Source: Telmatactis stephensoni (lineage: Eukaryota; Cnidaria; Anthozoa; Actiniaria; Isophelliidae). Taken from it: DNA of 64,000 nucleotides. The stretch is from contig JALIZF010001546.1 in NCBI GenBank assembly GCA_029948255.1, positions 124,001 to 188,000 of the forward strand. Reading direction: 5' to 3'. Shown here in pieces: positions 2,226 through 57,166 of the stretch (positions are counted from its first letter, which is position 1; the number at the start of each line of letters is the position of its first letter). Position numbers and translations under genes: made by a program. Under the pieces are notes generated by a model, which made no database searches, was not told the DNA's origin, and saw nothing but the letters and a program-made list of their open reading frames with translations.

Positions 2226-2367
2226 CCATTTGCTTTATATAATAGAATTTTACGAGCAAAGAAAGCAAAACTGAGAATAAAAATTTAGGTAAACAGAGCG
2301 CGCGTCTTTCGACATTGAATCGACAAAATTTCACAGGATACTATCATATCGTCAAAATTAGTATAGG

Positions 2368-2527
2368 AAATCGCACGATCTTGAGTACAATTCGGAATTA
2401 ATAGGTACGAGCAATGTTTTGAAAGTTCTCAAAATAGGACGAGCCTTTAGGCGAGTCCTATTTGAGAGTTTTCAAAACATTACGAGTAACTATTAATTCT
2501 GAATTGTACGAGAAGATCGTGCGATTT
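2368..2527. repeat. Foldback hairpin
   Basis: Left arm AAATCGCACGATCTTGAG pairs with the right arm ending near 2527. The centre GACGAGCCTTTAGGCGAGTC resembles the centre of the neighbouring 2060-2225 palindrome. A flanking motif TATAATAGAATTTTACGAGC at about 2238 recurs inverted near 8427-8446, so related elements lie on both sides of the Maverick-like insertion. Confidence 0.75.
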
Positions 2528-2858
2528 TTATTTATAATACACTATCGTTGCCATAGCGACTTAATAGGTACTCTACAGAGTACAATTAACGATTTAATTG
2601 TACTCCTCTCGTCCAATCAGAATCGAGTAATTTTGTATAGTGTATTATAATGCAAAAAATAGTTTTTCTATAGTGTTTTATTCTACGTAATTCATTAAGT
2701 TACCTCATTTATTTTGAACCGGTGATTAGATTTCCCCAAAATCTATCTTGCCTGACATGACCCAAACTGAGGTTTACATCCAGAATCTTGAAAGTTGGCG
2801 AGGCGTACTTATCGGTACAAAAATGGATTCTGATAAGTAAAGAAACTTCTTGTCGTCG

Positions 2859-2864
2859 TCTTCA
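2859..2864. repeat. Target-site duplication, left copy (TCTTCA)
   Basis: Six bases directly outside the left TIR, identical to 7832-7837 outside the right TIR. Moving the boundary by one base destroys the match, which fixes the element ends. Confidence 0.85.
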
Positions 2865-3567
2865 AGTAGATATGGAGTACCACTCCTACGCCACCCAGAG
2901 CTCCGGAGCTCTGGAGCAACAAATTAGTTATTCCGGAGCAGTGGACAAACAAAAGAAATTCTTTCCGGAGCAGCTAAGTAAATTATTTCGGAGCAACCAA
3001 CAAAAGAACTTCTTTCCGGTGCGTCCGAGGAACGAATGAAATACTGGGAAAACTCCGTTGCGAAGCAACCGAACAACTTTTTCGGAGTTTCAAACAAAAG
3101 AACGAGTTGGTAGTGGCACGCGCCACGCTTAAGCGTCTATTGTTTTTCGATTCTGCCACCTGCAAAAGGTATTGTTTTCAATTCCTGGCTCTTTTAAGAA
3201 TGAACAAAAGTTTAGTTAAGCGAGCGAATAGACCATTCTATTGAGAGCGTGACGGCTTTTGTCCGTGAAACGGTCACCTGTAGAACTATTGTGTTTATAA
3301 CTTTCAATACCCAAAATGAACTTCAATTCGACTTATATGTATTTGATTCAATGATTTCAGTCTCAAAATATAGCAGCTGTCAAACAAAACATGACGCAAC
3401 CATTCATATGCTATTGAATATTTATTCTATTGCATTCATGGAAAGTAACAATCTACAGGTTTCTTCTAGTAACCATGGAAACCATCTTTCGAGCTGGTCC
3501 ACAGGGATCCCAAACAAGATCAAATGTTATTTTATTAAGTACAACAAATATTGTCTTCAGTTCCCTC
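2865..3567 (+). repeat. Left terminal inverted repeat of the Maverick-like element
   Basis: About 703 bp, matching the right arm 7207-7831 in reverse complement with few substitutions. It is about 78 bp longer, mostly because a block with the motif TTCCGGAGCA and ACAAAAGAA.TTCTTTCCGG is repeated in the outer 160 bp. A smaller 6-bp difference lies near 3109. It contains an inward-facing open frame from 3249 that is also open in the right arm. A TTTATT at 3531-3536 gives an AATAAA on the minus strand downstream of the ATPase gene. Confidence 0.88.
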
Positions 3568-3581
3568 GTTACATTCAGTTC

Positions 3582-5045
3582 TTAATGTTTTTCCCAGCCA
3601 GGAATAAATTTAATCACGGCTCTCAATCGTTCTGAACGTCTTGGGGGTTGGAATACCTGTCCTCTGTACTTGTGCTCATCTTGATAACGTATCCACCTGA
3701 GAGGTTTTTCTTGGCTCGATGGGGGAGTAGGTGGAAACTCTCCTGGGACTGCACTCGACAGGGGGGTAAAAGGAGTGGGTTGATCCGAGGGAGCTTTTAA
3801 TGGGGTCGACGGTATTTCCTGTAAACTAGCAGTTTTAAAAGGCGTTCTAACTTTGGATGTCAGACGTTGAAGAAAGGAGGGTTCTTTCGGTGTTGCTGTG
3901 GCAATACCACTGTCACTGGGCAGAGTTGCTGTAGGGACGTTTTCTGAGGTCGTCACGTTAGAAGGTTGACTCTGAACAGACATGGTTGGTACGGTTGGTT
4001 TCTGTCTCGGTATCGTGAAACCGTTATTGGAGAGTTGCTGTTGATGGACGAGGTAACGAGTCAACAGTGGCTCATATTGTTTGGTTTTCACCTCCGGAGG
4101 TAGGGAAGGGTCATTCAAAATAGTGTCCATCTGTTCTGCCAATTCCTGCATGACTTTAAGAACGGGTGACTGTAAGTACCCCTGACGCTCAAAATAGTTA
4201 GCCATGGTCTTCATCGAATCTGTTTGGCCTCCAGTCTGCGATAGGTGGGCGTCGTTCGGGAGAACATTCGTACGCAATCGACACTCCTCCCTGGTGTTGG
4301 GTTTGAGATCGAGGAACAGGTAGCCGTACGACCGCTGAACGGCGGCCTCGTACTTTTGAACAAACTGTTCCGTCTTTCCTGGGTACATTTGTTTTCCTAA
4401 CGTCATCATCTGCAATTTGTCTCTGGGGTTTTTAAACAAGACGAGGTACGATGCATTCAGACTCAAGGTGCGCATGATCTTGCCTTGAAAATAAACATTT
4501 TGCAAGAGGAACACGACACTGAGATTTCGGTGATGGGAACCCTTTGTAAACAAATTCAGGATTCGTTTGTCGTTGGAGGTCTCGGTCATTTGGTCATCGA
4601 TAACCATCACATTGTTGATCTTGGGGTCAAAGTACCAATCCTCGTCGAGGTCATGAGGTATCCCTTTGACAAACTCGATCCCAGGTACCGTTTTGAGCAT
4701 CTGGTCGTAGGCCGGTTGCCACTGGGAATAACTCCATACAATACGTTGGGGCGGGGGATGAATGACTTGAGCTCCGTGCTCAAGAAGGTTCTGAACCCAG
4801 ACCGTCTTTCCAGAGCCGGTCATTCCAGCCACTAAGGCCGTGAAGGGATGAAGTAACCGAAAGCGGTCACATTTGGTTTCCACAGGCTTCGTCTGGGGAT
4901 AGGGAGTAAACCGCTGACCCCATTTTGTGCATTTTTCCTGACCAAGCCAATACGTCCGCTGTGAATTGTCCAACTTATGAGTTCTACTTAAATGAGTGTA
5001 TATGTTTTGTTGCGGCTTGCCGCATATAGGACACATCCGCACCAT
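3582..5045 (-). CDS. Zinc-finger plus FtsK/HerA-type packaging ATPase (A32-like)
   Basis: A 487-residue single-exon frame. Residues 5-23 form a C2H2-like finger (Cys5, Cys8, His18, His23). The P-loop GMTGSGKT lies at 74-81. The Walker B segment NNVMVIDDQM is near 144-153 with Asp150 and Asp151. It is followed by SHHRNLSVVFLLQN, the family's third conserved segment. This is the DNA-packaging ATPase fold of poxvirus A32 and Maverick/adintovirus elements, which pumps DNA into a capsid. The C-terminal third is Pro/Thr/Ser-rich and ends in a basic patch. The finger fused ahead of the ATPase may recognise the element's DNA (inference). It is divergent from the 5778 gene across the minisatellite. 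The start is the first Met, 43 bp below an ATAAATAG box. It is intact, with no frameshift seen. Confidence 0.88.
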   Translation of the reverse strand: MVRMCPICGKPQQNIYTHLSRTHKLDNSQRTYWLGQEKCTKWGQRFTPYPQTKPVETKCDRFRLLHPFTALVAGMTGSGKTVWVQNLLEHGAQVIHPPPQRIVWSYSQWQPAYDQMLKTVPGIEFVKGIPHDLDEDWYFDPKINNVMVIDDQMTETSNDKRILNLFTKGSHHRNLSVVFLLQNVYFQGKIMRTLSLNASYLVLFKNPRDKLQMMTLGKQMYPGKTEQFVQKYEAAVQRSYGYLFLDLKPNTREECRLRTNVLPNDAHLSQTGGQTDSMKTMANYFERQGYLQSPVLKVMQELAEQMDTILNDPSLPPEVKTKQYEPLLTRYLVHQQQLSNNGFTIPRQKPTVPTMSVQSQPSNVTTSENVPTATLPSDSGIATATPKEPSFLQRLTSKVRTPFKTASLQEIPSTPLKAPSDQPTPFTPLSSAVPGEFPPTPPSSQEKPLRWIRYQDEHKYRGQVFQPPRRSERLRAVIKFIPGWEKH

Positions 5046-5087
5046 CTCACGTCTTTTGAAGAATGAGACCCATTCTTGAAGGAAACG

Positions 5088-5095
5088 CTATTTAT
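5088..5095 (-). promoter_or_regulatory. ATAAATAG TATA-like box for the ATPase gene
   Basis: On the minus strand this reads ATAAATAG, 43 bp upstream of the ATPase start codon. The same octamer precedes the divergent gene at 5778. Position and identity of the pair suggest core promoter elements; function is inferred. Confidence 0.5.
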
Positions 5096-5134
5096 GGGCT
5101 ATGACCTAAATCTGAATAGAATAGATTTAACATT

Positions 5135-5668
5135 CTATCTAGTGTAGATTCTACTAGATACTAGATTCTACTAGATTCTACTAGATACTAGATTCTACTA
5201 GATTCTACTAGATACTAGATTCTACTAGATACTAGATTCTACTAGATTCAAGCTAGATTCTACTAGATTATAGCTAGTTACTAGATTTTAATATAGTCTA
5301 GTGTAGATTCTACTAGATTCTAGCTAGATTCTAGATTCTACTAGATACTAGATTCTACTAGATTCTAGCTAGATTCTAGATTCTACTAGATACTAAATTC
5401 TAGCTAGATACTAGATTCTACTAGATTATAGCTAGATTCTAGATTCTAGCTAGATACTAGATTCTACTAGATACTAGATATATTCTAGCTAGATACTAGA
5501 TTCTACTAGATTATAGCTAGATACTAGATTCTACTAGATTCTAGCTAGATACTAGATTCTAGATTCTAGCTAGATACTAGATTCTACTAGATTCTAGCTA
5601 GATACTAGATTTTATTATAGTCTAGTTTAGATTCTAGCTAGGGAACTAGATTCTAGTGTAGATTATAT
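5135..5668. repeat. CTAG-rich minisatellite between divergent genes
   Basis: About 530 bp built from interspersed 10-11 bp words such as ATTCTACTAG, ATACTAGATT and ATTCTAGCTAG. CTAG recurs roughly every 5-10 bp and many words are self-complementary. It fills the space between the two divergent promoters of the Maverick-like element. It could be neutral expansion, a replication or packaging signal, or a protein-binding array. Sequence alone does not decide. Confidence 0.9.
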
Positions 5669-5718
5669 CCTTCAAATGATAGAATTCCAACTGCCTTTAG
5701 TTGACAATGGAAAAAGGG

Positions 5719-5726
5719 ATAAATAG
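5719..5726 (+). promoter_or_regulatory. ATAAATAG TATA-like box for the 108-residue gene
   Basis: Identical octamer to the one at 5088-5095 on the other strand, 52 bp upstream of the ATG at 5778. The symmetrical placement around the minisatellite supports a bidirectional promoter region. Confidence 0.5.
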
Positions 5727-5777
5727 GAATGTTTTTCTGCCGTCCTTTCATTTGATGCAATCGGCTGTGCAGACAAC

Positions 5778-6104
5778 ATGAGCCACTTGCTAAGAGAAAA
5801 TTTTGGCTATTTGTGTCATTTAACCAATTGTTTTCCTCACCAAAGAAGGCTTTTGCTGTCTACCGCTAGTCCAGAACAGGTTCATGCCATTTGTGAAGTT
5901 TGCTCGAATTTATCGAGAGGCCTGATCCCCATGAAGGATACACACAAAGAAAGACTAAGAAAGCACGTGGACGACATACGTACATTAGCCAATCCATCCG
6001 TTCCTTTCAAAACCAAAAAACAAATTCTTGCTCAGCGGGGCGATGGTTTTGTATCCGATGTCATGTCACCCCTGATGTCAGCTTTGAGCCTGTTTTTGTT
6101 ATAA
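5778..6104 (+). CDS. Small basic protein with hydrophobic tail, pX-like (108 aa)
   Basis: A 108-residue single-exon frame in the Maverick-like element. Residues about 33-80 are helical and basic, with SPEQVHAICEVCSNLSRG then KKQILAQRGDGF. The last 20 residues are hydrophobic (SPLMSALSLFLL). From memory, small proteins with this plan (AICE..NLL.G..P, a basic block, Q.GG, hydrophobic end) recur next to packaging ATPases in cnidarian and fish Maverick/adintovirus elements, and have been compared with adenovirus core protein pX. In those, a Gly-Gly marks a protease site; here it reads Gly-Asp-Gly, so the site may be lost. A DNA-condensing or membrane role is inference. The next gene begins 57 bp downstream. 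Confidence 0.6.
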   Translation: MSHLLRENFGYLCHLTNCFPHQRRLLLSTASPEQVHAICEVCSNLSRGLIPMKDTHKERLRKHVDDIRTLANPSVPFKTKKQILAQRGDGFVSDVMSPLMSALSLFLL

Positions 6105-6161
6105 GTATTTGTGTCTAGAAAGAAGAAGCTCATTTTGACGTTGATCCTTCGAGGGAGCAAC

Positions 6162-6983
6162 ATGAAAAGAGCACGTAGCGATTCCACTGACACTGAACGC
6201 GGTTCTGAATATTCTCATGACGGATGTGTTGACGCAGAACAGGACTTGTGGGACAAGGAAGATATTGAAGAAATTCTACAGGAACTCTCCCAGAGTATCC
6301 CAGAAGATAAGGCTCTAGCGTTTCTTCATATTCTGGCGGCTTCAAAAAGTATTTTATACTGGAATTCCCATGGGGAGATGCTGTATCACGAACGAAGAAT
6401 TCCCGTGACCAGCATGGCAGAGCTTATCGAGTATGCCATGTTGCCTTTCAATCTTGAAGTCAAAGTACCTCGTGGGTTGAAAACGTTCACTCAAGGATTA
6501 TCGGAGATCGGTATTGACAAGAAACTGATCCGTAATAAGAAGTTGCTGGCGGATCTGGTTGCTAGGCAACCGGAAGAGGACGAGGCAGACAGTGAAACTA
6601 GTGACGAATCCTCTGAAAGAGAAAGTTTCGAGTCGGACGCTGAAAGTGTTGGTGAAAGCTTAGAGCCAGAGGAGAGTTCCGAACCGGAGCTTTCCGAATC
6701 GGATGAGGAACCCAGAGAGTGTCACGTTTGCCGTGACTTTGTGAAGTTTTACTCCATTCCGGTGGTTGAATGCCCTTGCTGTTTGTGGCGTGAAGCATAT
6801 TACTGTCGCGAAAACGAATACATCGAGTGTGATGTTTGTACGCATGTCTTTCCAGCCAATGCTCAGACCACTAAAGTTAAATTTTGTCGCTGTACAGACT
6901 GTAACGCTGTACACCAACAGTCCCTAAAAACCAAGAAATTAAAACTCGTGGATGATCATCAAGAAGAATCAAGTGAATTGTAA
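6162..6983 (+). CDS. Acidic, cysteine-rich protein of the Maverick-like element (273 aa)
   Basis: Single-exon frame; the ATG at 6162 is chosen because the frame upstream has no ATG. Residues 30-136 form a folded region including YWNSHGEMLYHERRIP and PRGLKTFTQGLSEIGI. From memory, a similar block (W....G......RIPG, P.GW..F...L..I..P..LI.N) is frequent in cnidarian Maverick-like elements and has no assigned function. Residues 137-186 are a long Ser/Glu/Asp tract. Residues 187-251 hold ten cysteines (187, 190, 204, 206, 207, 215, 223, 226, 242, 244, plus 247) in CxxC and CxC pairs, resembling two or three zinc sites. The C terminus is Lys-rich then acidic. An AATAAA lies at 6997-7002. No function assigned. 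Confidence 0.6.
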   Translation: MKRARSDSTDTERGSEYSHDGCVDAEQDLWDKEDIEEILQELSQSIPEDKALAFLHILAASKSILYWNSHGEMLYHERRIPVTSMAELIEYAMLPFNLEVKVPRGLKTFTQGLSEIGIDKKLIRNKKLLADLVARQPEEDEADSETSDESSERESFESDAESVGESLEPEESSEPELSESDEEPRECHVCRDFVKFYSIPVVECPCCLWREAYYCRENEYIECDVCTHVFPANAQTTKVKFCRCTDCNAVHQQSLKTKKLKLVDDHQEESSEL

Positions 6984-6996
6984 AATCGATCACTTG

Positions 6997-7002
6997 AATA
7001 AA
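6997..7002 (+). terminator. AATAAA polyadenylation signal
   Basis: The hexamer lies 14 bp after the stop codon of the 273-residue gene. A second AATAAA is at about 7063-7068. Typical of eukaryotic mRNA 3' ends. Confidence 0.5.
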
Positions 7003-7102
7003 TGGAATGACTTTGAGACTGATTTGTTCCTTACTGAGTGGTTCTGAATTTCGTTAAGGCTGAGAATAAATGGTCAAAAATATACTATCCTCTACGTGTA
7101 CT

Positions 7103-7176
7103 CTCTTCATAGCTCAGTCGGTTAGAGCGCGGGACTGTAGTTCCTGAGGCCGTCGGTTCAAATCCGGCTGGAGAGA
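7103..7176 (+). tRNA. tRNA-Tyr (anticodon GTA), intronless, inside the Maverick-like element
   Basis: A full cloverleaf can be drawn. The acceptor CTCTTCA (7103-7109) pairs with TGGAGAG (7169-7175), with discriminator A7176. The D stem is GCTC/GAGC. The anticodon stem CGGGA/TCCTG has loop CTGTAGT, giving anticodon GTA at 7137-7139. The variable loop has 5 nt and the T stem GTCGG/CCGGC has loop TTCAAAT. Internal A box (TAGCTCAGTCGG) and B box (GGTTCAAATCC) are intact, and TTTTT at 7182-7186 is a Pol III stop. The first pair is C1-G72, the eukaryote/archaeal tRNA-Tyr identity pair. No intron follows the anticodon, although nuclear tRNA-Tyr genes of animals almost always have one. It lies 31 bp inside the right TIR. 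Confidence 0.92.
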
Positions 7177-7181
7177 CTCTC

Positions 7182-7186
7182 TTTTT
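7182..7186 (+). terminator. RNA polymerase III terminator (T5)
   Basis: TTTTT begins 6 nt after the tRNA-Tyr discriminator base, the usual place for Pol III termination. Confidence 0.7.
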
Positions 7187-7206
7187 CGAAAAACAAATTA
7201 AAGCTA

Positions 7207-7831
7207 GAGGGAACTGAAGACAGTACTTGTTGTACTTAACAAATTAACATTTGATCTTGTTTGGGATCCCTGTGGACCAGCTCGAAAGATGGTTTCCATG
7301 GTTACTAGAAGAAACCTGTAGATTGTTACTTTCCATGAATGCAATAGAATAAATATTCAATAGCATATAAATGGTTGCGTCATGTTTTGTTTGACAGCTG
7401 CTATATTTTGAGACTGAAATCATTGAATCAAATACATATAAGTCGAATTGAAGTTCATTTTGGGTATTGAAAGTTATAAACACAATAGTTCTACAGGTGA
7501 CCGTTTCACGGACAAAAGCCGTCACGCTCTCAATAGAATGGTCTATTCGCTCGCTTAACTAAACTTTTGTTCATTCTTAAAAGAGCCAGGAATTGAAAAC
7601 AATACCTTTTGCAGGTGGCAGAATCGAAAAACAATAGACGCTTAAGCGTGGCGCGTGCCAACTCGTTCTTTTGTTTGAAACTCCGAAAAAGTTGTTCGGT
7701 TGCTTCGCAACGGAGTTTTCCCAGTATTTCATTCGTTCCTCAGACGCACCGGAAAGAATTTCTTTTGTTTGTCAACTGCTCCGGATGCTCCGGAGCTCTG
7801 GGTGGCGCAGGATTGGTACTCCATATCTACT
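7207..7831 (-). repeat. Right terminal inverted repeat of the Maverick-like element
   Basis: About 625 bp, the reverse complement of 2865-3567. The inner boundary is where the shared TTCCCTC / GAGGGAA ends. It carries fewer copies of the CCGGAGC subterminal motif than the left arm. The close match suggests recent insertion or gene conversion between the arms. Confidence 0.88.
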
Positions 7832-7837
7832 TCTTCA
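7832..7837. repeat. Target-site duplication, right copy (TCTTCA)
   Basis: Identical to 2859-2864. See the left copy. Confidence 0.85.
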
Positions 7838-33191: not shown

Positions 33192-36100
33192 ATCTTTTAG
33201 AAAATACTGCAAAATACAGGTTTTCTAACCTTGACAAACTGGAGGACCATTCTCTGACCATTGTCCAGGCAGACCTCCAAGACGGTGGTAACTACTATTG
33301 TTGTATTGGATCATCAAATCAAAGTGATGTACAGGGCTGTCAGGTGTTTACGTTAAAAGTGAAAGGTAATAATGTGATTGCCAGTCAAAAATTACACGTC
33401 TTTTCATCATCAGTTCTCTTCATCAGAATAACACTGAAGCATCACAACACTTGCGTCGTTGTCAAAGAGGAATTTTTTCTTGCCTTTTTATGTATTTTAG
33501 AGTGCACGCCATAAGTATCCGTGAAACAACTACTAACTATTTACGTACCACGTAATAGTATTTAGCTATCAGCTATTTAGTAGAGTGGTTTTCATTAGAG
33601 TGATCGCACTTAACCCATGAAAAAGTACAAATTCTATTTTGTACTAAAAAGTATAAAATCCTTTGTTTTCCATTGTTTAATAATGCTATTTTGCATTATT
33701 TAGCTAGTACAATTTATTTAGCTAGAGTGATGGCACTTAATCCGTGAAACGGATTAAAAAATCTAATAGTCAGTGTCTAATAGTCTAATCAAAACAAAAG
33801 AAAACAATAGAAAAAGTGTCTACTAATGTCTGTTAGACTAATACCTATTTCACGGATTAGAGTGATGGCACTTAATCCGTGAAATAGATATTTGTCTAAC
33901 AGACATTAGTAGACACCATTTCCATTGTTTTCTTTTGTTTTGATTAGACTATTAGACACTGACTATTAGATTTTGTTTCACGGATTAAGTGCCATCACTC
34001 TAAGGCCAAGTTCAGACGTCGAACTTTTGCCGTGTCGAATCTAATAGTTGCATTTTGTAAATGAGAAGTGCGGCGTCTGAACCTATTGTATTTCACAGAT
34101 TTGATTAAGTATTAAGTTGAAAAATTCAGTTTGAATCAATTTTGTCAAATTCATTTGGCTCAGAAGCCGCACTTCTCATCTACAAAATGCAACTATTAGA
34201 TTCGACGCGGCAAAAGTTCGACGTCTGAACTGGGCCTAAGTGCCATCACTCTAACACACTTTAGTGTATTACACCCTATTAGAGATTTCTCATAATAGCG
34301 AGATTTTTGACGCATTTGACGCAGCTTTTACGCACCAAGTATTTACATTTGCATAACAACAATTTCATTGTACCAAGCAAACAATAACGCCTCTTTTATC
34401 TAAAGAAACTTTATTTTAATTGTTCTTCCAATAAACCTGAAAAGGATTTATATGCCTAAGGCCTAGTTCAAACGTTGCATCTCACATGTACCGAATTCAA
34501 TGCAAATTAGTCAAATCTTTTGTTTCTACTCATTATCATCTCATTTGCATTGAATTCAGCACATGTGAGATGCTACGTTTGAACTAGGCCTAAAATGCAA
34601 ACAATAGATGAATGAATTTGTAATTCTGAAAAGATATACTAAATAGTACAAAAATACAACACCTTTGCTTTCCATGATTTGAAATATAATACTGTTCGTA
34701 GAGTACAAACACTAAAAGTGTGCAATACTTTGCACTATTTAGTACTAAATAGCACTAATTAAACAACAGAAAACAAAAGAATTTGCATAATTTAGCACTA
34801 TTTAGTACTATTCATGTTGCACACTTTTAGAGTTTGTACTCTACTTTAAGTGACCAAGGAATCCAGATTGAATAAATCGTATCTGGCCTTGACAATTGCA
34901 AACTATTTGAGTGCTCATGACATGACGATGCCTGTGCCCACTGTAATAACGTTCTTGAATATTTGGGCTGGGTCGATTGATGGGTGTGTACGTTCCATCA
35001 ATTGCTCCAACGGCATCTGGAAAATACCTCCATGTGTTGCGAATTCCTCTCCACTCTCTTCGAGTCGGCTAAGACACAAGGGAATGAAAGTGATGCCAAA
35101 GAACTGGGACGATTTGATGGATTGATCCTACACAGTTGACATGCTGACATCAAAGATTGAAGCTAAAAGGTCAATACTTGGGTATTTTCGTAACCATATA
35201 AGAACGAGTAAGACTCTGTTGCGTATATCCAACAGGTAAGGTCTGCCATTACGGTACCTTCTTTCACCATCCCTCCGTATTGCAAGAAGATCATTGTGTA
35301 CGTCATCAATCAGTTTCTCAAATGACTCAGGTGTTTCACCAGCTGTTCCAAGCCAAAAACTGTACTCGTGTAAAGATAACATTTCAAATACATCTCTGCC
35401 ATTGAATGTATGGGAGTTACGACTTACTGGTAAAAGCATTTGCGGGAATGGCTGACTAAGATATTGGAATATGGTAGGATTAGGTACAGAAACCAAAAAC
35501 TGGAGAATGACAAGGCAACACAGAAGTAATTCGTTTCCATTTTCTGGGTCATTGAGGGCTTCTTCAGGAAGTGGACCAAGTAGAATAGTAAGGATGGAGC
35601 AGAATATGTAGCAAAAATGAAGAAAACTTTCCATATATGTATTAGTACTGATCCAGAATAATATTCTAGATTTAGTCATACGTCCAATAAACACTGAACA
35701 ACTTTTGAGCAATAATGATATCAGTGTAACAATTGATCTTAATCAGATGGTATGGATTAAAAAAAAACATACTGCTGCGATTACGCACTTTAACCATTTA
35801 GGCGTTTGTCGCGTTATTGCTGCATTCAAATTGACGGGGACGCTTTTTACCGCCCGCCTGATTGCAGTATTTTTTTCCAAACCATGTCTTCGTCATGCAA
35901 CGTTGTTATTCGTTAAAACGTCGATTTTTTACAAATGTTATTTATAAATAGATTTGAATATTGCCTTTCTTTTTCTCACGTTTATTCAAAAGTACAGTGT
36001 TTGAACTGGGCCTAAAGAGTGCTGATATACGATAAGAGAAAGAATTATTTTATATTATAAAATATTTGAGATATAACGCGCGCGCTGATTGGCTGGCTAT

Positions 36101-41640: not shown

Positions 41641-44600
41641 TTGATATAAGGCAATGCAATTTACAACCAAAACCTGTGCATAAGGAATATTTTCAATTCA
41701 ACATACAGGGACTGGAAAAATTGTTCAAATGCATGCAATTCTTTGTACCACACAGAGTTGGAATAAATTTGTGTAACAGATGTATGCATAGGGAAGTCTA
41801 CTATGAGCTCATGTAGAAAAAATGTGGACATTTCTTGTTATGGAACCGCTTGTAAAAGTGTCAATAGTCGCTGGTACTGCTCTATACTATTCATCAGGAG
41901 CAAGATATGGAGCAGCGGATGAAAACCCACGCGTTTCGTAACTTTTAGCGCCAAAAGTCTTGCCCTACGCGTGACCAGACGACTGACAAGAAATGCCACA
42001 GGGAATGGTGAGTGGGTCAACCAGGATAATAATAGGCATGAAAAGGGCATCGTAATGTAATGGTCAATGGAGCTGAACAATTTTGGACTTACTTGGAAGG
42101 TCTGTAGGTCTAGTAAGGGTAGAACGGATGGCCAATTCCTTTGGTAATTGAACTTGACGTGGCATGTAGTTTAGCTTGGCTGAGACGAGGGAGAAAATTT
42201 GAAGGCGTGGTCACATGGGAAGTAGTGTGATTGGGTTTCCTGTGTAGCACAATGTGTGTGGTATGATTTGGGTTTCCTGTGTGAAGTATGGGAAGTGGGG
42301 GGGGGGGGGGGGGGGTGGAGAAGACTGCCAAACATAGCAGTAGTAAAGTATATGTATATGTATCAGTTGAGTGCATATGTAGGGGGTATGGGCTAAGAGA
42401 ACTATACATATACAATGGGTGAAAACATCCATGTATTATGCACACATGTCAGAAGTAAATATGCAAAACCTGGCAGGTATTCGTACCTATGCTGAGGGGA
42501 AGGAGAGGGAGGGGTCTAGTGGAGTAAGGTTGTAGGGGAAGGGTAATGGTCATGAGAGGAAGGAGATGTAAAAGGGCAGCATAGGGATCAATTAAGATTC
42601 AAAACTTTCCCTGCAAATATAGCAACATTTTGATGTAAGGCAATGCAATTTACAACCAAAGCATGTGCATAAGGAACATTTTCAATTGGGTTTCCTGTGT
42701 GAGGTATGTGAAGTGGGGGAGGGGGGGGGGGGGGGGGGAAGGCAAAGACTGCCAAACATAGCAGTAGTAAAGTATATGTATATGTATCAGTTGAGTGCAT
42801 ATGTAGGGGGTATGGGCTAAGAGAACCATACATATACAATGGGTGAAAACATCCATGTATTATGCACACATGTCAGAAGTAAATATGCACAACCTGGCAG
42901 GTATTCGTACCTATGCTGAGGGGAAGGAGAGGGAGGGGTCTAGTGGAGTAGGGCTGTAGGGGAAGGGGAATGGTCATGAGAGGAAGGAGATGTAAAAGGG
43001 CAGCATAGGGATCAATTAAGATTCAAAACTTTCCCTGCAAATATAGCAACATTTTGATATAAGGCAATGCAATTTACAACCAAAACCTGTGCATAAGGAA
43101 TATTTTCAATTCAACATACAGGGACTGGAAAAATTGTTCAAATGCATGCAATTCTTTGTACCACACAGAGTTGGAATAAATTTGTGTAACAGATGTATGC
43201 ATAGGGAAGTCTACTATGAGCTCATGTAGAAAAAATGTGGACATTTCTTGTTATGGAACCGCTTGTAAAAGTGTCAATAGTCGCTGGTACTGCTCTATAC
43301 TATTCATCAGGAGCAAGATATGGAGCAGCGGATGAAAACCCACGCGTTTCGTAACTTTTAGCGCCAAAAGTCTTGCCCTACGCGTGACCAGACGACTGAC
43401 AAGAAATGCCACAGGGAATGGTGAGTGGGTCAACCAGGATAATAATAGGCATGAAAAGGGCATCGTAATGTAATGGTCAATGGAGCTGAACAATTTTGGA
43501 CTTACTTGGAAGGTCTGTAGGTCTAGTAAGGGTAGAACGGATGGCCAATTCCTTTGGTAATTGAACTTGACGTGGCATGTAGTTTAGCTTGGCTGAGACG
43601 AGGGAGAAAATTTGAAGGCGTGGTCACATGGGAAGTAGTGTGATTGGGTTTCCTGTGTAGCACAATGTGTGTGGTATGATTTGGGTTTCCTGTGTGAAGT
43701 ATGGGAAGTGGGGGGGGGGGGGGGGGGGGGGGTGGAGAAGACTGCCAAACATAGCAGTAGTAAAGTATATGTATATGTATCAGTTGAGTGCATATGTAGG
43801 GGGTATGGGCTAAGAGAACTATACATATACAATGGGTGAAAACATCCATGTATTATGCACACATGTCAGAAGTAAATATGCAAAACCTGGCAGGTATTCG
43901 TACCTATGCTGAGGGGAAGGAGAGGGAGGGGTCTAGTGGAGTAAGGTTGTAGGGGAAGGGTAATGGTCATGAGAGGAAGGAGATGTAAAAGGGCAGCATA
44001 GGGATCAATTAAGATTCAAAACTTTCCCTGCAAATATAGCAACATTTTGATGTAAGGCAATGCAATTTACAACCAAAGCATGTGCATAAGGAACATTTTC
44101 AATTGGGTTTCCTGTGTGAGGTATGTGAAGTGGGGGAGGGGGGGGGGGGGAAGGCAAAGACTGCCAAACATAGCAGTAGTAAAGTATATGTATATGTATC
44201 AGTTGAGTGCATATGTAGGGGGTATGGGCTAAGAGAACCATACATATACAATGGGTGAAAACATCCATGTATTATGCACACATGTCAGAAGTAAATATGC
44301 ACAACCTGGCAGGTATTCGTACCTATGCTGAGGGGAAGGAGAGGGAGGGGTCTAGTGGAGTAGGGCTGTAGGGGAAGGGTAATGGTCATGAGAGGAAGGA
44401 GATGTAAAAGGGCAGCATAGGGATCAATTAAGATTCAAAACTTTCCCTGCAAATATAGCAACATTTTGATATAAGGCAATGCAATTTACAACCAAAACCT
44501 GTGCATAAGGAATATTTTCAATTCAACATACAGGGACTGGAAAAATTGTTCAAATGCATGCAATTCTTTGTACCACACAGAGTTGGAATAAATTTGTGTA

Positions 44601-45672
44601 ACAGATGTATGCATAGGGAAGTCTACTATGAGCTCATGTAGAAAAAATGTGGACATTTCTTGTTATGGAACCGCTTGTAAAAGTGTCAATAGTCGCTGGT
44701 ACTGCTCTATACTATTCATCAGGAGCAAGATATGGAGCAGCGGATGAAAACCCACGCGTTTCGTAACTTTTAGCGCCAAAAGTCTTGCCCTACGCGTGAC
44801 CAGACGACTGACAAGAAATGCCACAGGGAATGGTGAGTGGGTCAACCAGGATAATAATAGGCATGAAAAGGGCATCGTAATGTAATGGTCAATGGAGCTG
44901 AACAATTTTGGACTTACTTGGAAGGTCTGTAGGTCTAGTAAGGGTAGAACGGATGGCCAATTCCTTTGGTAATTGAACTTGACGTGGCATGTAGTTTAGC
45001 TTGGCTGAGACGAGGGAGAAAATTTGAAGGCGTGGTCACATGGGAAGTAGTGTGATTGGGTTTCCTGTGTAGCACAATGTGTGTGGTATGATTTGGGTTT
45101 CCTGTGTGAAGTATGGGAAGTGGGGGGGGGGGGGGGGGGGGGGTGGAGAAGACTGCCAAACATAGCAGTAGTAAAGTATATGTATATGTATCAGTTGAGT
45201 GCATATGTAGGGGGTATGGGCTAAGAGAACTATACATATACAATGGGTGAAAACATCCATGTATTATGCACACATGTCAGAAGTAAATATGCAAAACCTG
45301 GCAGGTATTCGTACCTATGCTGAGGGGAAGGAGAGGGAGGGGTCTAGTGGAGTAAGGTTGTAGGGGAAGGGTAATGGTCATGAGAGGAAGGAGATGTAAA
45401 AGGGCAGCATAGGGATCAATTAAGATTCAAAACTTTCCCTGCAAATATAGCAACATTTTGATGTAAGGCAATGCAATTTACAACCAAAGCATGTGCATAA
45501 GGAACATTTTCAATTGGGTTTCCTGTGTGAGGTATGTGAAGTGGGGGAGGGGGGGGGGGGGAAGGCAAAGACTGCCAAACATAGCAGTAGTAAAGTATAT
45601 GTATATGTATCAGTTGAGTGCATATGTAGGGGGTATGGGCTAAGAGAACCATACATATACAATGGGTGAAAA
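41641..45672. repeat. Tandem array of 1.41-kb units, left block (copies 1-3)
   Basis: Units begin with TTGATATAAGGCAATGC at about 41641, 43054 and 44466, giving a period of 1,412-1,413 bp. Copies are nearly identical apart from the length of poly-G tracts. Each unit carries an internal duplication of about 425 bp, from the region after the G tract to CAACATTTTGAT. Each copy has two G tracts, one in AAGTGGGGG..TGGAG and one in AAGTGGGGGAGG..AAGGC. Short minus-strand frames repeat in each copy, but they change with G-tract length and I do not regard them as genes. The block stops mid-unit at 45672, where the Penelope-like body begins. Confidence 0.93.
41891..41973 (-). ncRNA. Structured RNA motif in every array unit, ribozyme-like
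   Basis: On the minus strand: CACGCGT, A, GGGCAAGA, hairpin ACTTTT-GGCGCT-AAAAGT, TAC, GAA, ACGCGTG, about 25 nt, TCTTGCTC, CTGATGA. Three helices can form: CACGCGT with ACGCGTG, the hairpin, and GGGCAAGA with TCTTGCTC (a pseudoknot with the first). A diverged copy at 46308-46397 changes both sides of all three: GCACGT/ACGTGC, ACTCTT/AAGAGT and GGGTTAAG/CTTAACCC. CTGATGA and GAAA are hammerhead core words, and hammerheads are known in Penelope-like pseudo-LTRs, but the strand order here is not a standard hammerhead. The same motif recurs in each unit at the 1.41-kb period. Confidence 0.5.
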
Positions 45673-48600
45673 GTCTTTGTAATGAGGATAATGCAATTTA
45701 AGACTGAAGCATGTACACATGTGTTGGAGGTTGAAATGTAGGTTAAAACCAAATTGAGTGTGTGGAAATTGTCTTCTGTGTGATTTAGGACATATATGAG
45801 GGGGATTTGTAATAAGAGAATTGTAGTATCCGTATAGTGATAGACAAGTCTGCTGATAAAGTGTTAAAAATGCTATGTACGTGCAAAAAAAGGGGTAGCG
45901 GGTAAAGCAGCCGGAAGGTCCGTGAATGATTGTATAAAAAGTACGATAGGTAGCGTGTAGTGTGTTAGGGAAAAGGGTAATAGAAGCACCAAGAACATTC
46001 ATATACAAGTCGTGTGTGGAAGACTTAGGGGGGAGGGGTGGGTGGGGATTAGGAAAATCCTTGAAAAATAACCAAAAGGACGAAACCCAAGGAAGTGATG
46101 AATGAAAACGTGGATCGGTAAAGATAAAATGGGTAATAAATGCGGTGGAGAGAAAATTAGGCAGCTAGGGGAGGTGGAGAGATAAGCGGATCGGTAACGG
46201 CGGCGTGGCATGAGCTCATGTGACGCGCGGTGCCATGGAGGAGCGGGAGATTCGAAAAAAATACATAGGGAAAAGGACTGTAGATCGCTCGTTCTGCCAG
46301 GTAGTGATCATCAGGGGTTAAGCTACAAGGCAGAGGTCGGAAAAGGGGACCAGCACGTTTCATAACTCTTAGCGCCAAGAGTCTTAACCCTACGTGCCAC
46401 GAGTCGATCAGGGGCACCCCGTTGACCGATGTGAAAAGGTTAAAAAAGGAAAAAAAAAGGAAAAAAAAAAAAAGAAGGGATGAGTGTAAAATGGTTAGTG
46501 AACGGGATGGGTGGGGAATGAAATGTTGTGGCGATCGTTGTAGTGTAAACTGGTAAAAATACTTACTTGGCTTCTATAGTCGCTTGCTATTATCCAGTGC
46601 AGGCACATGGAAAGGGAAGGGAGCATGCGTGCACTCCGTTAACAGGAAGGGGGGAGGGGGGGGATATTCTTTCGTCACCGAAGTGTTGTATGTTTGGGTG
46701 ACCTGTGGTAAAGTTGTGGCTAGGGACCCCGGTGTGGATGGGCTGGAGTTCCTGTGTTATAGTGAATCTATCTGGTGTGTCGGGTGGGGGGAAGGGGAGG
46801 GGGGTGGGCAGGTGAGCTTGCGTGTATGGCTTATGGAGAGTTGAGTGCGTGGAGTCCCTGTGTAGTAGAAAAGAGATAAAAGAAAGTCTTTGTGTAGTAA
46901 ATGAAAGGGAAATTACAATGGGGTGCGTGGAGTCCCAGTGTAGTGAAGAAAAGGGGGGGTGCGGGGTTCCTGTGCCCTGAAGTTAGAAAGAAATACTGGG
47001 GAGACTAGCCGATGGAAAAGATTCGAAAAGTGCATGGGTTGAAAACGAATAGGGAGAATCTACTGTGTAGTGTAGTGCAAGATAGGTCCGTTGGATGGGG
47101 GGGGGGGGGGGGGAAGTAGGTTTTTGGATGAAGTGTATGCACGGTTATAGTGAGTCAGGTTAGTGGAATCCCTGTGTAGTAAACGAAGAGGGGGAGCTGG
47201 GCCGGGACGTATGATAAACAAGCGAGTGCAAAATGTTAATGGCGTTGCAAACTTTCGTAGAAAATTGACAAGGAGGATGTGAAAAAGACTTTAATTATAC
47301 AAAACAGCCTGTTGAAATATGCCTGAGTGGTTTTATTGCCCGTTGGGTATGTAAAACGGATCTTGAGGGCCGAAAGTGTTCAAGATTGGCGTAGCTTGTT
47401 GTCCATGTCCTCTATGTGTTTACAATGTTCACGTGGTTGTAGTGGTATCTGTTAGGAGTATACTTCCTATGGACAGAACACGGTTGGCCGGACATGCATT
47501 GTCGAAGGATTCATCAGTCTCTACTTAACTCTTGTTGGTTGGGCACAGGTAGGACGTTCGTGGCATAAATGTACAAGTTTAGAATGTAGGATATATTCTG
47601 TATATGGCATTGTATTAATTCTGTTCAATCCAAGGAAATGTGGGATTCCAATCAATGAATTTATGTCTATGTGTCCCCACACTGGTATAAATTCTATGTA
47701 AGTGTTTGTAGACTACTGGACTTGTGGAAGTTCATGTTGGGTAGTGCTCTCCGTGGATAACACATGGAGGAGAGACCAAAAGTGTGGATCTCTGGGTATA
47801 TGTTTTTCAGATGTATATTTGTTCATGGTGGCTTGGCTGCTTTGTCAGGGTTTTTTGGCTGCTTTGGATGGCTTGCATGTAGAAGGGTCCATTTTTGTGT
47901 TGTGTGGTGCATGTGTATGAGGTGATATGTTTCTCTGTTGCATGAAATGATGTGCTATTCATGGATGATTGTGTGGGGGAGGGGGTGATGAGGAGAATCG
48001 TGTGTGTACAAGTGTGTCTTTAATGTTACGGTGTCTCATGAAGGATACAATGGGTGGCTTGGGAAAAAAGGGGGACAAGGATTTGTCATGTGAGATGAGG
48101 AACCACAGGGAGCGTATGATTCGTGACAGGGGTAGAAACTGAGGGTGGAATGGGACAGTCAAGGGAATGATGGGTTGGGAGTTGTGATTGGTAGTGTCTG
48201 GGTCTGCCTGTGGGAAGAGTAGTTCATTTTGTGTGTGTTCTAATATGGTTTTAAAGGCGGATGTAATGAGGTGATTGGGGTAACCGCGAGCAAGGAGCAC
48301 CACTCGCAGCCTCTCTAACTGGTGGCATAGGTCTTCATCACGGGTCGTGAGCCGTCTGTATCTTAGTACTTGGCTGCGAATGGTGCCCTTCTTGCAGGCA
48401 TTGGGATGGTGGGATGAGTGGTGTAGGAGGAGTGTGCTGTCTGTTGGTTTGGTGTATAGGGTTGTGTAAAGTGTTAGTTCAGGTGTGAGGTGTACATTAG
48501 TGTCTAGGAAGTTAATGTTGGTTGTTGAAAAGGTGTATTGGAATTTGATGCTGTGGTGAAAATTGTTCATGTACTGGAGGAAGTGTTCTAGTGTTGTTTG

Positions 48601-49612
48601 CCCGTGTGGCCATATCATGAAAATGTCGTCAATGTATCTTTTCCACAGGAGGGGTAAGAGGGAGTTGGGGGGGTTTGTGAGTAGCTGGGTTTCCAGTTGG
48701 GCCATGAAAATGTTAGCGTAGGAGGGGGCCATACGTGTACCCATGGCTGTGCCGTGTTGTTGAAGGTAAAATTGGTGGTTAAATGAGAAAAAATTGTGTT
48801 TGAGAATGAAAGTTAGGAACTGATTGAAGACATGTAGGGGAGGGGTGGAATGTTTTGGTAGGGTTGAAAGGGCTTTAAGGGAGGCAGCGATTCCCTCTTC
48901 ATGTGGTATGTTGGTGTATAGGGAGGTAACATCTATGGTGACAAGGATGGTGTTGTCAGGAAGTGGGGTGGGTAAAGTAAAAATTGTTTGCAGGAAATGG
49001 TTAGTATCTCTTATGTAGGAGGGTATTAAGGGGACTAGGGTTTTGAGGTAGTAGTCAACAAATATGGATAGTTTCTCTGTGGGGGAATCGCAGCCGGAGA
49101 TGATGGGGCGACCAGGGATGTTAGGCTTGTGAATTTTGGGCAACATATAGAAAAGAGGGATTCGGCTAGGTGAGTGTGGTATTAGGAAATTGTAGGTGTT
49201 AGTGTCAATAATGTGGGTTGAATGTAGGAAGTGAAGGTAGGCAGTAATGTCTCCAATCAGTTTCGGAATCGGGTTGTGGGGAACTGGTGTGTAGTATTTG
49301 GGATCTAATAATTGTCTGTGTGCTTCTTTCAGGTATTGGTGTTCAGGCCAGAGTACTATGGAACCACCCTTGTCAGCAGGTTTAATGATAATGTGTTGAA
49401 GTTGTTGAAGTTGGTGTAGTGCTTGTTGGTGATTTGGGGAAAGGTTGGATCTGTGTGGGTGTTTGGGATAGGTGAGAAGGGGATTTAGGTGATCCCATAG
49501 TGTATTAATGAATATACGGAGGTTTGTGTTGTCAGGTATGGGTGGGTCCCAGGTGCTGGGGTTGCGGAAAGGGGATGGGGAATTGGATGAGTGACGGAAA
49601 TGGTAACGAAGG
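45673..49612 (-). mobile_element. Penelope-like retroelement body inside the tandem array
   Basis: A 3.94-kb unique segment flanked by direct copies of about 218 bp of the array unit (45455-45672 and 49613-49829). It carries a reverse transcriptase frame on the minus strand (47959 to about 49612) and about 2.2 kb downstream of it without a clear frame. That downstream part includes an A-rich tract at 46440-46475, a G tract at 47097-47113 and a diverged copy of the structured motif found in every array unit (46308-46397). Direct terminal repeats in partial tandem are typical of Penelope-like pseudo-LTRs. Confidence 0.75.
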
Positions 49613-49836
49613 TTTTGATGTAAGGCAATGCAATTTACAACCAAAGCATGTGCATAAGGAACATTTTCAATTGGGTTTCCTGTGTGAGGTATGTGAAGTG
49701 GGGGAGGGGGGGGGGGGGAAGGCAAAGACTGCCAAACATAGCAGTAGTAAAGTATATGTATATGTATCAGTTGAGTGCATATGTAGGGGGTATGGGCTAA
49801 GAGAACCATACATATACAATGGGTGAAAACATCCAT
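47959..49836 (-). CDS. Penelope-like reverse transcriptase, open, N terminus replaced by repeat sequence
   Basis: A 625-codon open frame. Residues 1-75 are translated array repeat. From about residue 76 (LRYHFRHSSN) it is Penelope-type RT: IKPADKGGSIVL (151-162), LPKIHKPNIPGRPIISG (232-248), VTIDVTSLYTNIPHEEG (299-315, catalytic Asp302), GTAMGTRMAPSYANIFM (362-378), and WKRYIDDIFMIW with catalytic YIDD at 401-404. The thumb region with RRLTTRDEDL and FLPLSRIIRSLW follows. Related proteins normally have about 100 more residues before PADKGG and a GIY-YIG endonuclease after the thumb. Here the frame stops after SPPPPHNHP and I find no clear GIY-YIG. It is probably a truncated copy that kept an intact catalytic core; whether it is expressed is unknown. 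Confidence 0.82.
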   Translation of the reverse strand: MDVFTHCICMVLLAHTPYICTQLIHIHILYYCYVWQSLPSPPPPPPLHIPHTGNPIENVPYAHALVVNCIALHQNLRYHFRHSSNSPSPFRNPSTWDPPIPDNTNLRIFINTLWDHLNPLLTYPKHPHRSNLSPNHQQALHQLQQLQHIIIKPADKGGSIVLWPEHQYLKEAHRQLLDPKYYTPVPHNPIPKLIGDITAYLHFLHSTHIIDTNTYNFLIPHSPSRIPLFYMLPKIHKPNIPGRPIISGCDSPTEKLSIFVDYYLKTLVPLIPSYIRDTNHFLQTIFTLPTPLPDNTILVTIDVTSLYTNIPHEEGIAASLKALSTLPKHSTPPLHVFNQFLTFILKHNFFSFNHQFYLQQHGTAMGTRMAPSYANIFMAQLETQLLTNPPNSLLPLLWKRYIDDIFMIWPHGQTTLEHFLQYMNNFHHSIKFQYTFSTTNINFLDTNVHLTPELTLYTTLYTKPTDSTLLLHHSSHHPNACKKGTIRSQVLRYRRLTTRDEDLCHQLERLRVVLLARGYPNHLITSAFKTILEHTQNELLFPQADPDTTNHNSQPIIPLTVPFHPQFLPLSRIIRSLWFLISHDKSLSPFFPKPPIVSFMRHRNIKDTLVHTRFSSSPPPPHNHP

Positions 49837-52800
49837 GTATTATGCACACATGTCAGAAGTAAATATGCACAACCTGGCAGGTATTCGTACCTATGCTGAG
49901 GGGAAGGAGAGGGAGGGGTCTAGTGGAGTAGGGCTGTAGGGGAAGGGTAATGGTCATGAGAGGAAGGAGATGTAAAAGGGCAGCATAGGGATCAATTAAG
50001 ATTCAAAACTTTCCCTGCAAATATAGCAACATTTTGATATAAGGCAATGCAATTTACAACCAAAACCTGTGCATAAGGAATATTTTCAATTCAACATACA
50101 GGGACTGGAAAAATTGTTCAAATGCATGCAATTCTTTGTACCACACAGAGTTGGAATAAATTTGTGTAACAGATGTATGCATAGGGAAGTCTACTATGAG
50201 CTCATGTAGAAAAAATGTGGACATTTCTTGTTATGGAACCGCTTGTAAAAGTGTCAATAGTCGCTGGTACTGCTCTATACTATTCATCAGGAGCAAGATA
50301 TGGAGCAGCGGATGAAAACCCACGCGTTTCGTAACTTTTAGCGCCAAAAGTCTTGCCCTACGCGTGACCAGACGACTGACAAGAAATGCCACAGGGAATG
50401 GTGAGTGGGTCAACCAGGATAATAATAGGCATGAAAAGGGCATCGTAATGTAATGGTCAATGGAGCTGAACAATTTTGGACTTACTTGGAAGGTCTGTAG
50501 GTCTAGTAAGGGTAGAACGGATGGCCAATTCCTTTGGTAATTGAACTTGACGTGGCATGTAGTTTAGCTTGGCTGAGACGAGGGAGAAAATTTGAAGGCG
50601 TGGTCACATGGGAAGTAGTGTGATTGGGTTTCCTGTGTAGCACAATGTGTGTGGTATGATTTGGGTTTCCTGTGTGAAGTATGGGAAGTGGGGGGGGGGG
50701 GGGGGGGGGGTGGAGAAGACTGCCAAACATAGCAGTAGTAAAGTATATGTATATGTATCAGTTGAGTGCATATGTAGGGGGTATGGGCTAAGAGAACTAT
50801 ACATATACAATGGGTGAAAACATCCATGTATTATGCACACATGTCAGAAGTAAATATGCAAAACCTGGCAGGTATTCGTACCTATGCTGAGGGGAAGGAG
50901 AGGGAGGGGTCTAGTGGAGTAAGGTTGTAGGGGAAGGGTAATGGTCATGAGAGGAAGGAGATGTAAAAGGGCAGCATAGGGATCAATTAAGATTCAAAAC
51001 TTTCCCTGCAAATATAGCAACATTTTGATATAAGGCAATGCAATTTACAACCAAAGCATGTGCATAAGGAACATTTTCAATTGGGTTTCCTGTGTGAGGT
51101 ATGTGAAGTGGGGGAGGGGGGGGGGGGGGAAGGCAAAGACTGCCAAACATAGCAGTAGTAAAGTATATGTATATGTATCAGTTGAGTGCATATGTAGGGG
51201 GTATGGACTAAGAGAACCATACATATACAATGGGTGAAAACATCCATGTATTATGCACACATGTCAGAAGTAAATATGCACAACCTGGCAGGTATTCGTA
51301 CCTATGCTGAGGGGAAGGAGAGGGAGGGGTCTAGTGGAGTAGGGCTGTAGGGGAAGGGTAATGGTCATGAGAGGAAGGAGATGTAAAAGGGCAGCATAGG
51401 GATCAATTAAGATTCAAAACTTTCCCTGCAAATATAGCAACATTTTGATATAAGGCAATGCAATTTACAACCAAAACCTGTGCATAAGGAATATTTTCAA
51501 TTCAACATACAGGGACTGGAAAAATTGTTCAAATGCATGCAATTCTTTGTACCACACAGAGTTGGAATAAATTTGTGTAACAGATGTATGCATAGGGAAG
51601 TCTACTATGAGCTCATGTAGAAAAAATGTGGACATTTCTTGTTATGGAACCGCTTGTAAAAGTGTCAATAGTCGCTGGTACTGCTCTATACTATTCATCA
51701 GGAGCAAGATATGGAGCAGCGGATGAAAACCCACGCGTTTCGTAACTTTTAGCGCCAAAAGTCTTGCCCTACGCGTGACCAGACGACTGACAAGAAATGC
51801 CACAGGGAATGGTGAGTGGGTCAACCAGGATAATAATAGGCATGAAAAGGGCATCGTAATGTAATGGTCAATGGAGCTGAACAAGTTTGGACTTACTTGG
51901 AAGGTCTGTAGGTCTAGTAAGGGTAGAACGGATGGCCAATTCCTTTGGTAATTGAACTTGACGTGGCATGTAGTGTAGCTTGGCTGAGACGAGGGAGAAA
52001 ATTTGAAGGCGTGGTCACATGGGAAGTAGTGTGATTGGGTTTCCTGTGTAGCACAATGTGTGTGGTATGATTTGGGTTTCCTGTGTGAAGTATACGGAAG
52101 TGGGGATGGGGGGGGGGGGAGTGGGGGGGGGGGTGGAGAAGACTGCCAAACATAGCAGTAGTAAAGTATATGTATATGTATCAGTTGAGTGCATATGTAG
52201 GGGGTATGGGCTAAGAGAACTATACATATACAATGGGTGAAAACATCCATGTATTATGCACACATGTCAGAAGTAAATATGCAAAACCTGGCAGGTATTC
52301 GTACCTATGCTGAGGGGAAGGAGAGGGAGGGGTCTAGTGGAGTAAGGTTGTAGGGGAAGGGTAATGGTCATGAGAGGAAGGAGATGTAAAAGGGCAGCAT
52401 AGGGATCAATTAAGATTCAAAACTTTCCCTGCAAATATAGCAACATTTTGATATAAGGCAATGCAATTTACAACCAAAGCATGTGCATAAGGAACATTTT
52501 CAATTGGGTTTCCTGTGTGAGGTATGTGAAGTGGGGGAGGGGGGGGGGGGAAGGCAAAGACTGCCAAACATAGCAGTAGTAAAGTATATGTATATGTATC
52601 AGTTGAGTGCATATGTAGGGGGTATGGACTAAGAGAACCATACATATACAATGGGTGAAAACATCCATGTATTATGCACACATGTCAGAAGTAAATATGC
52701 ACAACCTGGCAGGTATTCGTACCTATGCTGAGGGGAAGGAGAGGGAGGGGTCTAGTGGAGTAGGGCTGTAGGGGACGGGTAATGGTCATGAGAGGAAGGA

Positions 52801-55800: not shown

Positions 55801-56989
55801 GCATGCAATTCTTTGTACCACACAGAGTTGGAATAAATTTGTGTAACAGATGTATGCATAGGGAAGTCTACTATGAGCTCATGTAGAAAAAATGTGGACA
55901 TTTCTTGTTATGGAACCGCTTGTAAAAGTGTCAATAGTCGCTGGTACTGCTCTATACTATTCATCAGGAGCAAGATATGGAGCAGCGGATGAAAACCCAC
56001 GCGTTTCGTAACTTTTAGCGCCAAAAGTCTTGCCCTACGCGTGACCAGACGACTGACAAGAAATGCCACAGGGAATGGTGAGTGGGTCAACCAGGATAAT
56101 AATAGGCATGAAAAGGGCATCGTAATGTAATGGTCAATGGAGCTGAACAAGTTTGGACTTACTTGGAAGGTCTGTAGGTCTAGTAAGGGTAGAACGGATG
56201 GCCAATTCCTTTGGTAATTGAACTTGACGTGGCATGTAGTGTAGCTTGGCTGAGACGAGGGAGAAAATTTGAAGGCGTGGTCACATGGGAAGTAGTGTGA
56301 TTGGGTTTCCTGTGTAGCACAATGTGTGTGGTATGATTTGGGTTTCCTGTGTGAAGTATAGGAAGTGGGGGATGGGGGGGGGTGGGGGGGGGGGGTGGAG
56401 AAGACTGCCAAACATAGCAGTAGTAAAGTATATGTATATGTATCAGTTGAGTGCATATGTAGGGGGTATGGGCTAAGAGAACTATACATATACAATGGGT
56501 GAAAACATCCATGTATTATGCACACATGTCAGAAGTAAATATGCAAAACCTGGCAGGTATTCGTACCTATGCTGAGGGGAAGGAGAGGGAGGGGTCTAGT
56601 GGAGTAAGGTTGTAGGGGAAGGGTAATGGTCATGAGAGGAAGGAGATGTAAAAGGGCAGCATAGGGATCAATTAAGATTCAAAACTTTCCCTGCAAATAT
56701 AGCAACATTTTGATATAAGGCAATGCAATTTACAACCAAAGCATGTGCATAAGGAACATTTTCAATTGGGTTTCCTGTGTGAGGTATGTGAAGTGGGGGA
56801 GGGGGGGGGGGGGAAGGCAAAGACTGCCAAACATAGCAGTAGTAAAGTATATGTATATGTATCAGTTGAGTGCATATGTAGGGGGTATGGGCTAAGAGAA
56901 CTATACATATACAATGGGTGAAAACATCCATGTATTATGCACACGTCAGGAGTAAATATGCACAACCTGGCAGGTATTCGTACCTATGC
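49613..56989. repeat. Tandem array of 1.41-1.42 kb units, right block (copies 4-8)
   Basis: It resumes inside a unit: 49613-49829 repeats 45455-45672. Further unit starts lie at about 50034, 51445, 52866, 54289 and 55711 (period 1,411-1,423 bp). Copies 5-8 share variants absent from copies 1-4 (AACAAGTTTGGACTTACTTGG and GTAGTGTAGCTTGG instead of AACAATTTTGG and GTAGTTTAGC), so the array grew locally. The last copy ends at about 56989. Confidence 0.93.
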
Positions 56990-57166
56990 TTATTACGCAT
57001 TCCATTCCATAAACCAATCAAATTTAAGCTTGATTTTCATATTACCAGGGCCTTCGATTTTTCCGTTGGAAAGCTGAGAAGGACCTGGGAACGAGGATGT
57101 ACGGGCGGTAGGTCCTTCAAACGTACTTTATGGGACAATATATTAAACGATATATGAAGGACTTAC

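Follow-up and report, generated by a model that had tools for sequence, protein, structure and literature searches.

Polintons, or Mavericks (Polintoviricetes, adintovirus-like), carry long terminal inverted repeats (TIRs) that start with AG and are flanked by 6-bp target-site duplications (TSDs). A Maverick-type element of 4967 bp is found in the sea anemone Telmatactis stephensoni at positions 2865-7831 of a 64-kb stretch (assembly GCA_029948255.1, contig JALIZF010001546.1, here C437, positions 124001-188000; hereafter the window), integrated between two copies of the hexamer TCTTCA. Like Polintons it has long TIRs, a 6-bp TSD (seen at six sites of its family) and an FtsK/A32-type packaging ATPase; unlike them it lacks DNA polymerase B (PolB), the rve integrase, the protease and the capsid genes, and has a transfer RNA (tRNA) gene and the gene of a 273-amino-acid (aa) protein, p273, as fixed parts. 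The element is considered, with modest confidence, to be a Maverick-derived satellite with its own predicted motor, which would depend on a helper for replication and integration and be packaged in helper capsids.

The cfPICI-like phage satellites are bacterial, bring their own packaging genes and also make capsids; the Telmatactis element would likewise borrow helper functions while supplying its own packaging functions, however its genes are unrelated to theirs and it makes no capsids. Virophages (mavirus, Sputnik) are similar in being helper-dependent DNA elements related to Mavericks, some of which integrate; they encode capsid and replication proteins (PMC11071308), whereas the element has neither. 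Non-autonomous Mavericks that arose by internal deletion resemble the element in keeping the TIRs and losing the autonomous genes, but the element keeps three genes and a tRNA across several insertions, two of these genes being constrained. Polintons measure 15-20 kb as opposed to 5 kb here, and in a survey of 72 of them nine capsid-less elements also lacked the protease and ATPase (PMC4028283). A Maverick satellite with this gene set is not described in the open-licence literature searched, including passages of PMC11071296, PMC4028283, PMC11071308, PMC6431247 and PMC9341512.

Anatomy of the element and its copies in the genome

The window contains the tips of the element, AGTAGATATGG (from 2865) and CCATATCTACT (to 7831), just once each; the exact ends, perfect duplication and 0.6-0.7 kb TIRs described in an earlier sequence-only reading of this DNA were therefore reproduced (Table 1). 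The TIR arms align with 615 matches and 10 mismatches over 625 positions, with 78 gap columns that fall mostly near the tips; the inner 454 bp are 99% complementary. The ATPase gene runs leftward from the central spacer while the 108-aa gene and p273 run rightward, and the tRNA-Tyr gene follows p273, ahead of the right TIR. An inventory of ATG-started open reading frames (ORFs) of at least 80 aa found the three genes open in the window copy, as that reading had stated, along with two further plus-strand ORFs (94 and 100 aa) that overlap the left TIR or lie antisense to the ATPase. The inventory holds no ORF of a size fitting PolB, integrase, protease or capsid, so the genes expected of an autonomous Maverick are lacking here and their absence, also claimed earlier, stands; the three element proteins gave no Pfam match to the rve integrase, the Ulp1-like protease or the major and minor capsid proteins. 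Near the left flank of the element, a repeat at window positions 2356-2650 has counterparts of 97-99% identity on two other contigs.

Table 1. Features of the compact element, in window coordinates
Feature	Position	Strand	Basis or remark
Target-site duplication TCTTCA, left copy	2859-2864		sequence
Left TIR, 703 bp	2865-3567	+	most of it used as query in the genome search
Packaging ATPase, 487 aa	3582-5045	-	FtsK/A32-type; open frame
Central spacer, CTAGAT repeats abundant	about 5120-5660		splits two divergent gene blocks
108-aa gene	5778-6104	+	open; basic middle, hydrophobic C-terminus by eye
273-aa gene (p273)	6162-6983	+	N-terminal domain conserved; linker acidic; zinc ribbon predicted at the C-terminus
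tRNA-Tyr(GTA)	7103-7177	+	intronless, T-run downstream; just inside right TIR
Right TIR, 625 bp	7207-7831	-	aligned with the left arm over 625 positions
Target-site duplication TCTTCA, right copy	7832-7837		sequence

The element has been integrated repeatedly. The assembly (483.5 Mb, 1782 contigs) was searched with most of the left TIR as query; scoring of 40 out of 357 candidates yielded 66 matches distributed over 27 contigs. Tips and flanks fetched from 20 loci show that the family inserted independently at no fewer than six distinct sites, each with a perfect 6-bp duplication: the window copy, C38 (TAGCGA, 5194 bp), C1063 with C624 (TCGATC, 4831 bp), C62 (AACAGA, 6031 bp) and C506 (TATAGG, 4849 bp), all compact, and C293 with C1201 (CACAAC, 3.1 kb), which is palindromic. 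C1063 and C624 (flanks 99.6% identical) are likely alleles, as are C293 and C1201 (99.2%). The five compact insertions (4.8-6.0 kb) share the order ATPase, 108-aa gene, p273, tRNA; the sequence-only reading had proposed a search for further copies sharing TIR and gene order, and these are present, each with its own TSD. The middles of C62, C38, C506 and C1063 match nothing beyond parts of the element genes and the spacer; the latter is similar in C62, C506 and C1063 but differs in C38. Several TSD-flanked sites, with two of the sites each found on two contigs (flanks 99% identical), rule out an assembly artefact.

The remaining loci give partial views: C395 shows a right half, C160 and C248/C913 show left halves only, C676 and C888 are TIR pairs only, and C19 retains the tRNA and a decayed p273 in a right arm. 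C248 and C913 have one flank in common (92.6% over 443 bp) and likely represent one insertion or its duplicate. The spacer of C38 between the ATPase and 108-aa genes holds a non-CTAGAT repeat with open frames of SGYQAIRL-type repeats. The 3.1-kb palindromic derivative at C293/C1201 contains two inverted pieces of p273, and the ATPase was not detected in it. C117 (422800-430800) has TIR-like stretches that recur, equally oriented, about 22 kb away on that contig; in the 8 kb inspected there the longer ORFs, viewed by eye, contained none of the element genes, and ARAGORN identified no tRNA. No copy was found in 21 sampled stretches (201 kb).

The tRNA-Tyr gene is a part of the element that the sequence-only reading had missed. 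It was detected by BLAST in 11 of 20 loci, the remaining nine being ATPase-side arms, and by ARAGORN in 9 of 15, the six without it being five ATPase-side arms and C117; every p273-side arm fetched contains it. Introns are usual in eukaryotic tRNA-Tyr genes. The tRNA genes of other copies are 96.0-98.7% identical to that of the window, compared with 82.7-95.3% for the TIR matches, and the eight displayed share one difference from it.

Element proteins and selection

The packaging ATPase displays a Walker A motif (GMTGSGKT), an invariant DD and a proline-rich tail, with an N-terminal C2H2-like zinc finger recognized by eye. Its match to Pox_A32 scores 22.6 bits, slightly below the 22.8 cut-off (E 8.3e-5), and many of its relatives carry PF04665. 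There are 415 relatives at E <= 0.001 (120 listed); in an alignment of the window's sequence with 23 picked from those listed (n=24), G74, T76, G77, G79, K80, D150 and D151 are invariant. Phage records contained nothing matching the ATPase, and a sequence search of solved structures returned nothing firm for it, with a GPN-loop GTPase ranking first (E 0.011). Among named relatives, those closest to the ATPase and to p273 come from the sea anemone Actinostola; Exaiptasia, another sea anemone, is also among the nearest, and the corals Oculina and Porites are more distant.

No Pfam or NCBIfam family matched p273, however relatives are plentiful: 33 at E <= 0.001 with the single sequence and 246 at E <= 0.01 with a profile (120 listed), the profile search extending the family to corals as well as sea anemones. 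An alignment of the window's p273 with 26 picked relatives (n=27) shows a well conserved N-terminal domain and two almost invariant C-terminal cysteines; several members are shortened. AlphaFold models residues 181-260 with pLDDT of about 82-93 and the remainder at low confidence (mean 62.8, pTM 0.37); judging from the cysteines and weak S27e/RPB9 matches, these residues would form a zinc ribbon. Solved structures searched by sequence gave nothing firm (S27e on top at E 0.063) and the fold search gave no match at E <= 0.001. Similar motifs may be present in an uncharacterised Polinton ORF. The 108-aa protein has no family match except to a PHROG at E 0.01; the name "pX-like" given to it earlier finds no family support. 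No relative was confirmed among viral contigs scanned for the ATPase, p273 and the 108-aa protein, a set from which records near the host genome may be excluded.

Selection was estimated as the ratio of nonsynonymous to synonymous rates (dN/dS), with codon counts taken from in-frame alignment pieces and site numbers re-derived from rounded rates; Fisher tests were applied to 12 chosen pairs, about one per insertion and gene, which are not independent of one another. Purifying selection is seen on the ATPase and p273 in most pairs tested, as dN/dS lies below 1 at p<0.05 in nine of 11 (10 of 12 including the single pair for the 108-aa gene). For p273 compared with the window, values of 0.17-0.38 are obtained at all 10 loci compared, and for C506, C38, C62, C1063 and C293 they are 0.17-0.34 with p from 0.00016 to 0.014; between non-window copies, counted without a Fisher test, p273 reaches 0.68. 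The ATPase gives 0.39-0.49 against the window for C506, C248 and C160 (p 0.011-0.041). The selection that the sequence-only reading asked for in all three genes is therefore present, in most pairs tested, in two of them; the 108-aa gene has too few changes, with dN/dS of 0.09-0.85 against the window.

A second ATPase lineage is found in C62 and C38, with dN of 0.207 and 0.225 relative to the window and saturated dS; between these two copies dN/dS is 0.32 (p=1e-9). Their p273 proteins are about 97% identical to the window's across most of their length despite the unlike ATPases, which suggests that the halves of the element have been exchanged between copies.

Elsewhere in the window, positions 42000-58000 form a block of strong GC skew with pairs of ~420-bp tandem repeats every ~1.4 kb and a 626-aa reverse-transcriptase ORF (RVT_1) at 47959-49839; this block is presumably a Penelope-like array. 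An HTH_Tnp_4 ORF at 35128-35742 is likely the remnant of a DDE transposon.

A putative satellite life cycle and the competing explanations

Independent compact insertions, selection in most pairs, exchanged halves and the conserved tRNA all strengthen the reading of the element as a satellite. Its replication would be carried out by the PolB of a helper Maverick, starting at the TIR tips, and its insertion by the helper integrase; the satellite's own ATPase would load satellite DNA into helper capsids, perhaps favouring it over helper DNA with the p273 zinc ribbon as a specificity factor. The 108-aa protein may be a core or membrane-active protein, and the tRNA gene may be transcribed. PolB does exist elsewhere in the genome: scoring 91 out of 107 candidates with PF03175 gave 88 matches, spread over 38 contigs other than C437; open frames there reach 1484 aa, and the loci are candidate helpers.

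Several results weigh against this reading. All four of the remaining compact insertions contain at least one frame break or stop, so the window copy is the only one examined in which all three genes are fully open, and the multiple intact copies of about 5 kb that the sequence-only reading named as support were not found. The ATPase is broken by a stop in C506 and by frame changes in C1063/C624, C38 and C62, p273 is broken in C38 and C1063/C624, and the 108-aa gene in C506; among the other loci the ATPase is also broken in C160 and C248/C913, and p273 in C395 and C293/C1201. Some of these breaks may be assembly errors. Selection is also uneven, since p273 compared with C395 gives 0.36 at p=0.077, the ATPase compared with the window gives 0.69 for C1063 (p=0.56), 0.86 for C624 and 0.68 for C913, and values above 1, from few changes, are seen for C1063-C913 (1.18), C913-C624 (1.39) and the likely alleles C1063-C624 (2.59). 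The values for C624 and C913 and those above 1 are counts from outside the Fisher-tested pairs. The selection on the element genes could furthermore act in full Mavericks rather than in the compact form. Lastly, the 38 PolB contigs and the 27 contigs with TIR matches do not overlap, and a helper sharing the element's TIRs was thus not seen among the 40 TIR candidates scored out of 357. Of the signs by which the sequence-only reading would recognize a satellite, the repeated compact insertions and, in most pairs tested, the purifying selection on the ATPase and p273 are present, while neither a second intact copy nor a TIR-matched helper was seen among the loci scored; packaging in helper capsids is a prediction.

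The broken genes and uneven ATPase values (0.68-0.86 against the window at three of the eight loci, and above 1 for three further pairs) would fit a Maverick deletion derivative of the usual non-autonomous sort, amplified as a unit, in which the genes are passengers and their low dN/dS stems from selection in full-length parents; the existence of the further-deleted palindromic form points the same way. This explanation is considered somewhat unlikely, as the same gene set and order are kept in five independent compact insertions and the tRNA is conserved at 96-99%; a neutral derivative would also be expected to show dN/dS near 1 in all genes, rather than, against the window, 0.17-0.38 for p273 and ATPase values of 0.39-0.49 (three loci) and 0.68-0.86 (three others). 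The two ATPase lineages separated by saturated dS, both within compact copies (C62 and C38 versus the rest), argue against it as well; they imply that the compact form is old, that it was formed repeatedly with the same content, or that genes were swapped.

With a motor, a small basic protein and p273 and nothing for replication or a shell, the compact element might instead be the second segment of a bipartite virus, mutually dependent on a Maverick that carries PolB and capsid but no motor. Compact and PolB loci do share one genome; however, the TIRs are not visibly common to the PolB loci, and an ATPase was identifiable in 83% of the Polintons surveyed by Krupovic et al. 2014 (PMC4028283). 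This arrangement is considered improbable. Least probable of all is an interference or host-defence island, in which the ATPase and p273 would sabotage the packaging of incoming Mavericks in the manner of some phage satellites and virophages that curb their helpers. A set of packaging and possible regulator genes without replication genes is compatible with this, as is the finding that numerous relatives of the ATPase and of p273 come from contigs only about 0.7-3 kb long, which judging from their size may be transcripts; against it, repeated TSD-flanked insertion and similar TIR arms within copies indicate mobility, not maintenance by the host alone.

Beyond the single genome, the element is tentatively proposed, at rather less than even confidence, to belong to an ancient class of ~5-kb Maverick satellites in sea anemones and corals, in which Maverick TIRs would enclose genes for a motor, a core-like and a zinc-ribbon specificity protein, together with a tRNA-Tyr gene; they would steal capsids while supplying the motor themselves, the first such satellites in animals. 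If the element is indeed a satellite, the Mavericks of animals are themselves parasitized; selection on the packaging motor it keeps would count as evidence for DNA packaging by Mavericks in animals, and the element would provide a compact system for asking whether the ATPase selects the genome that is packaged.

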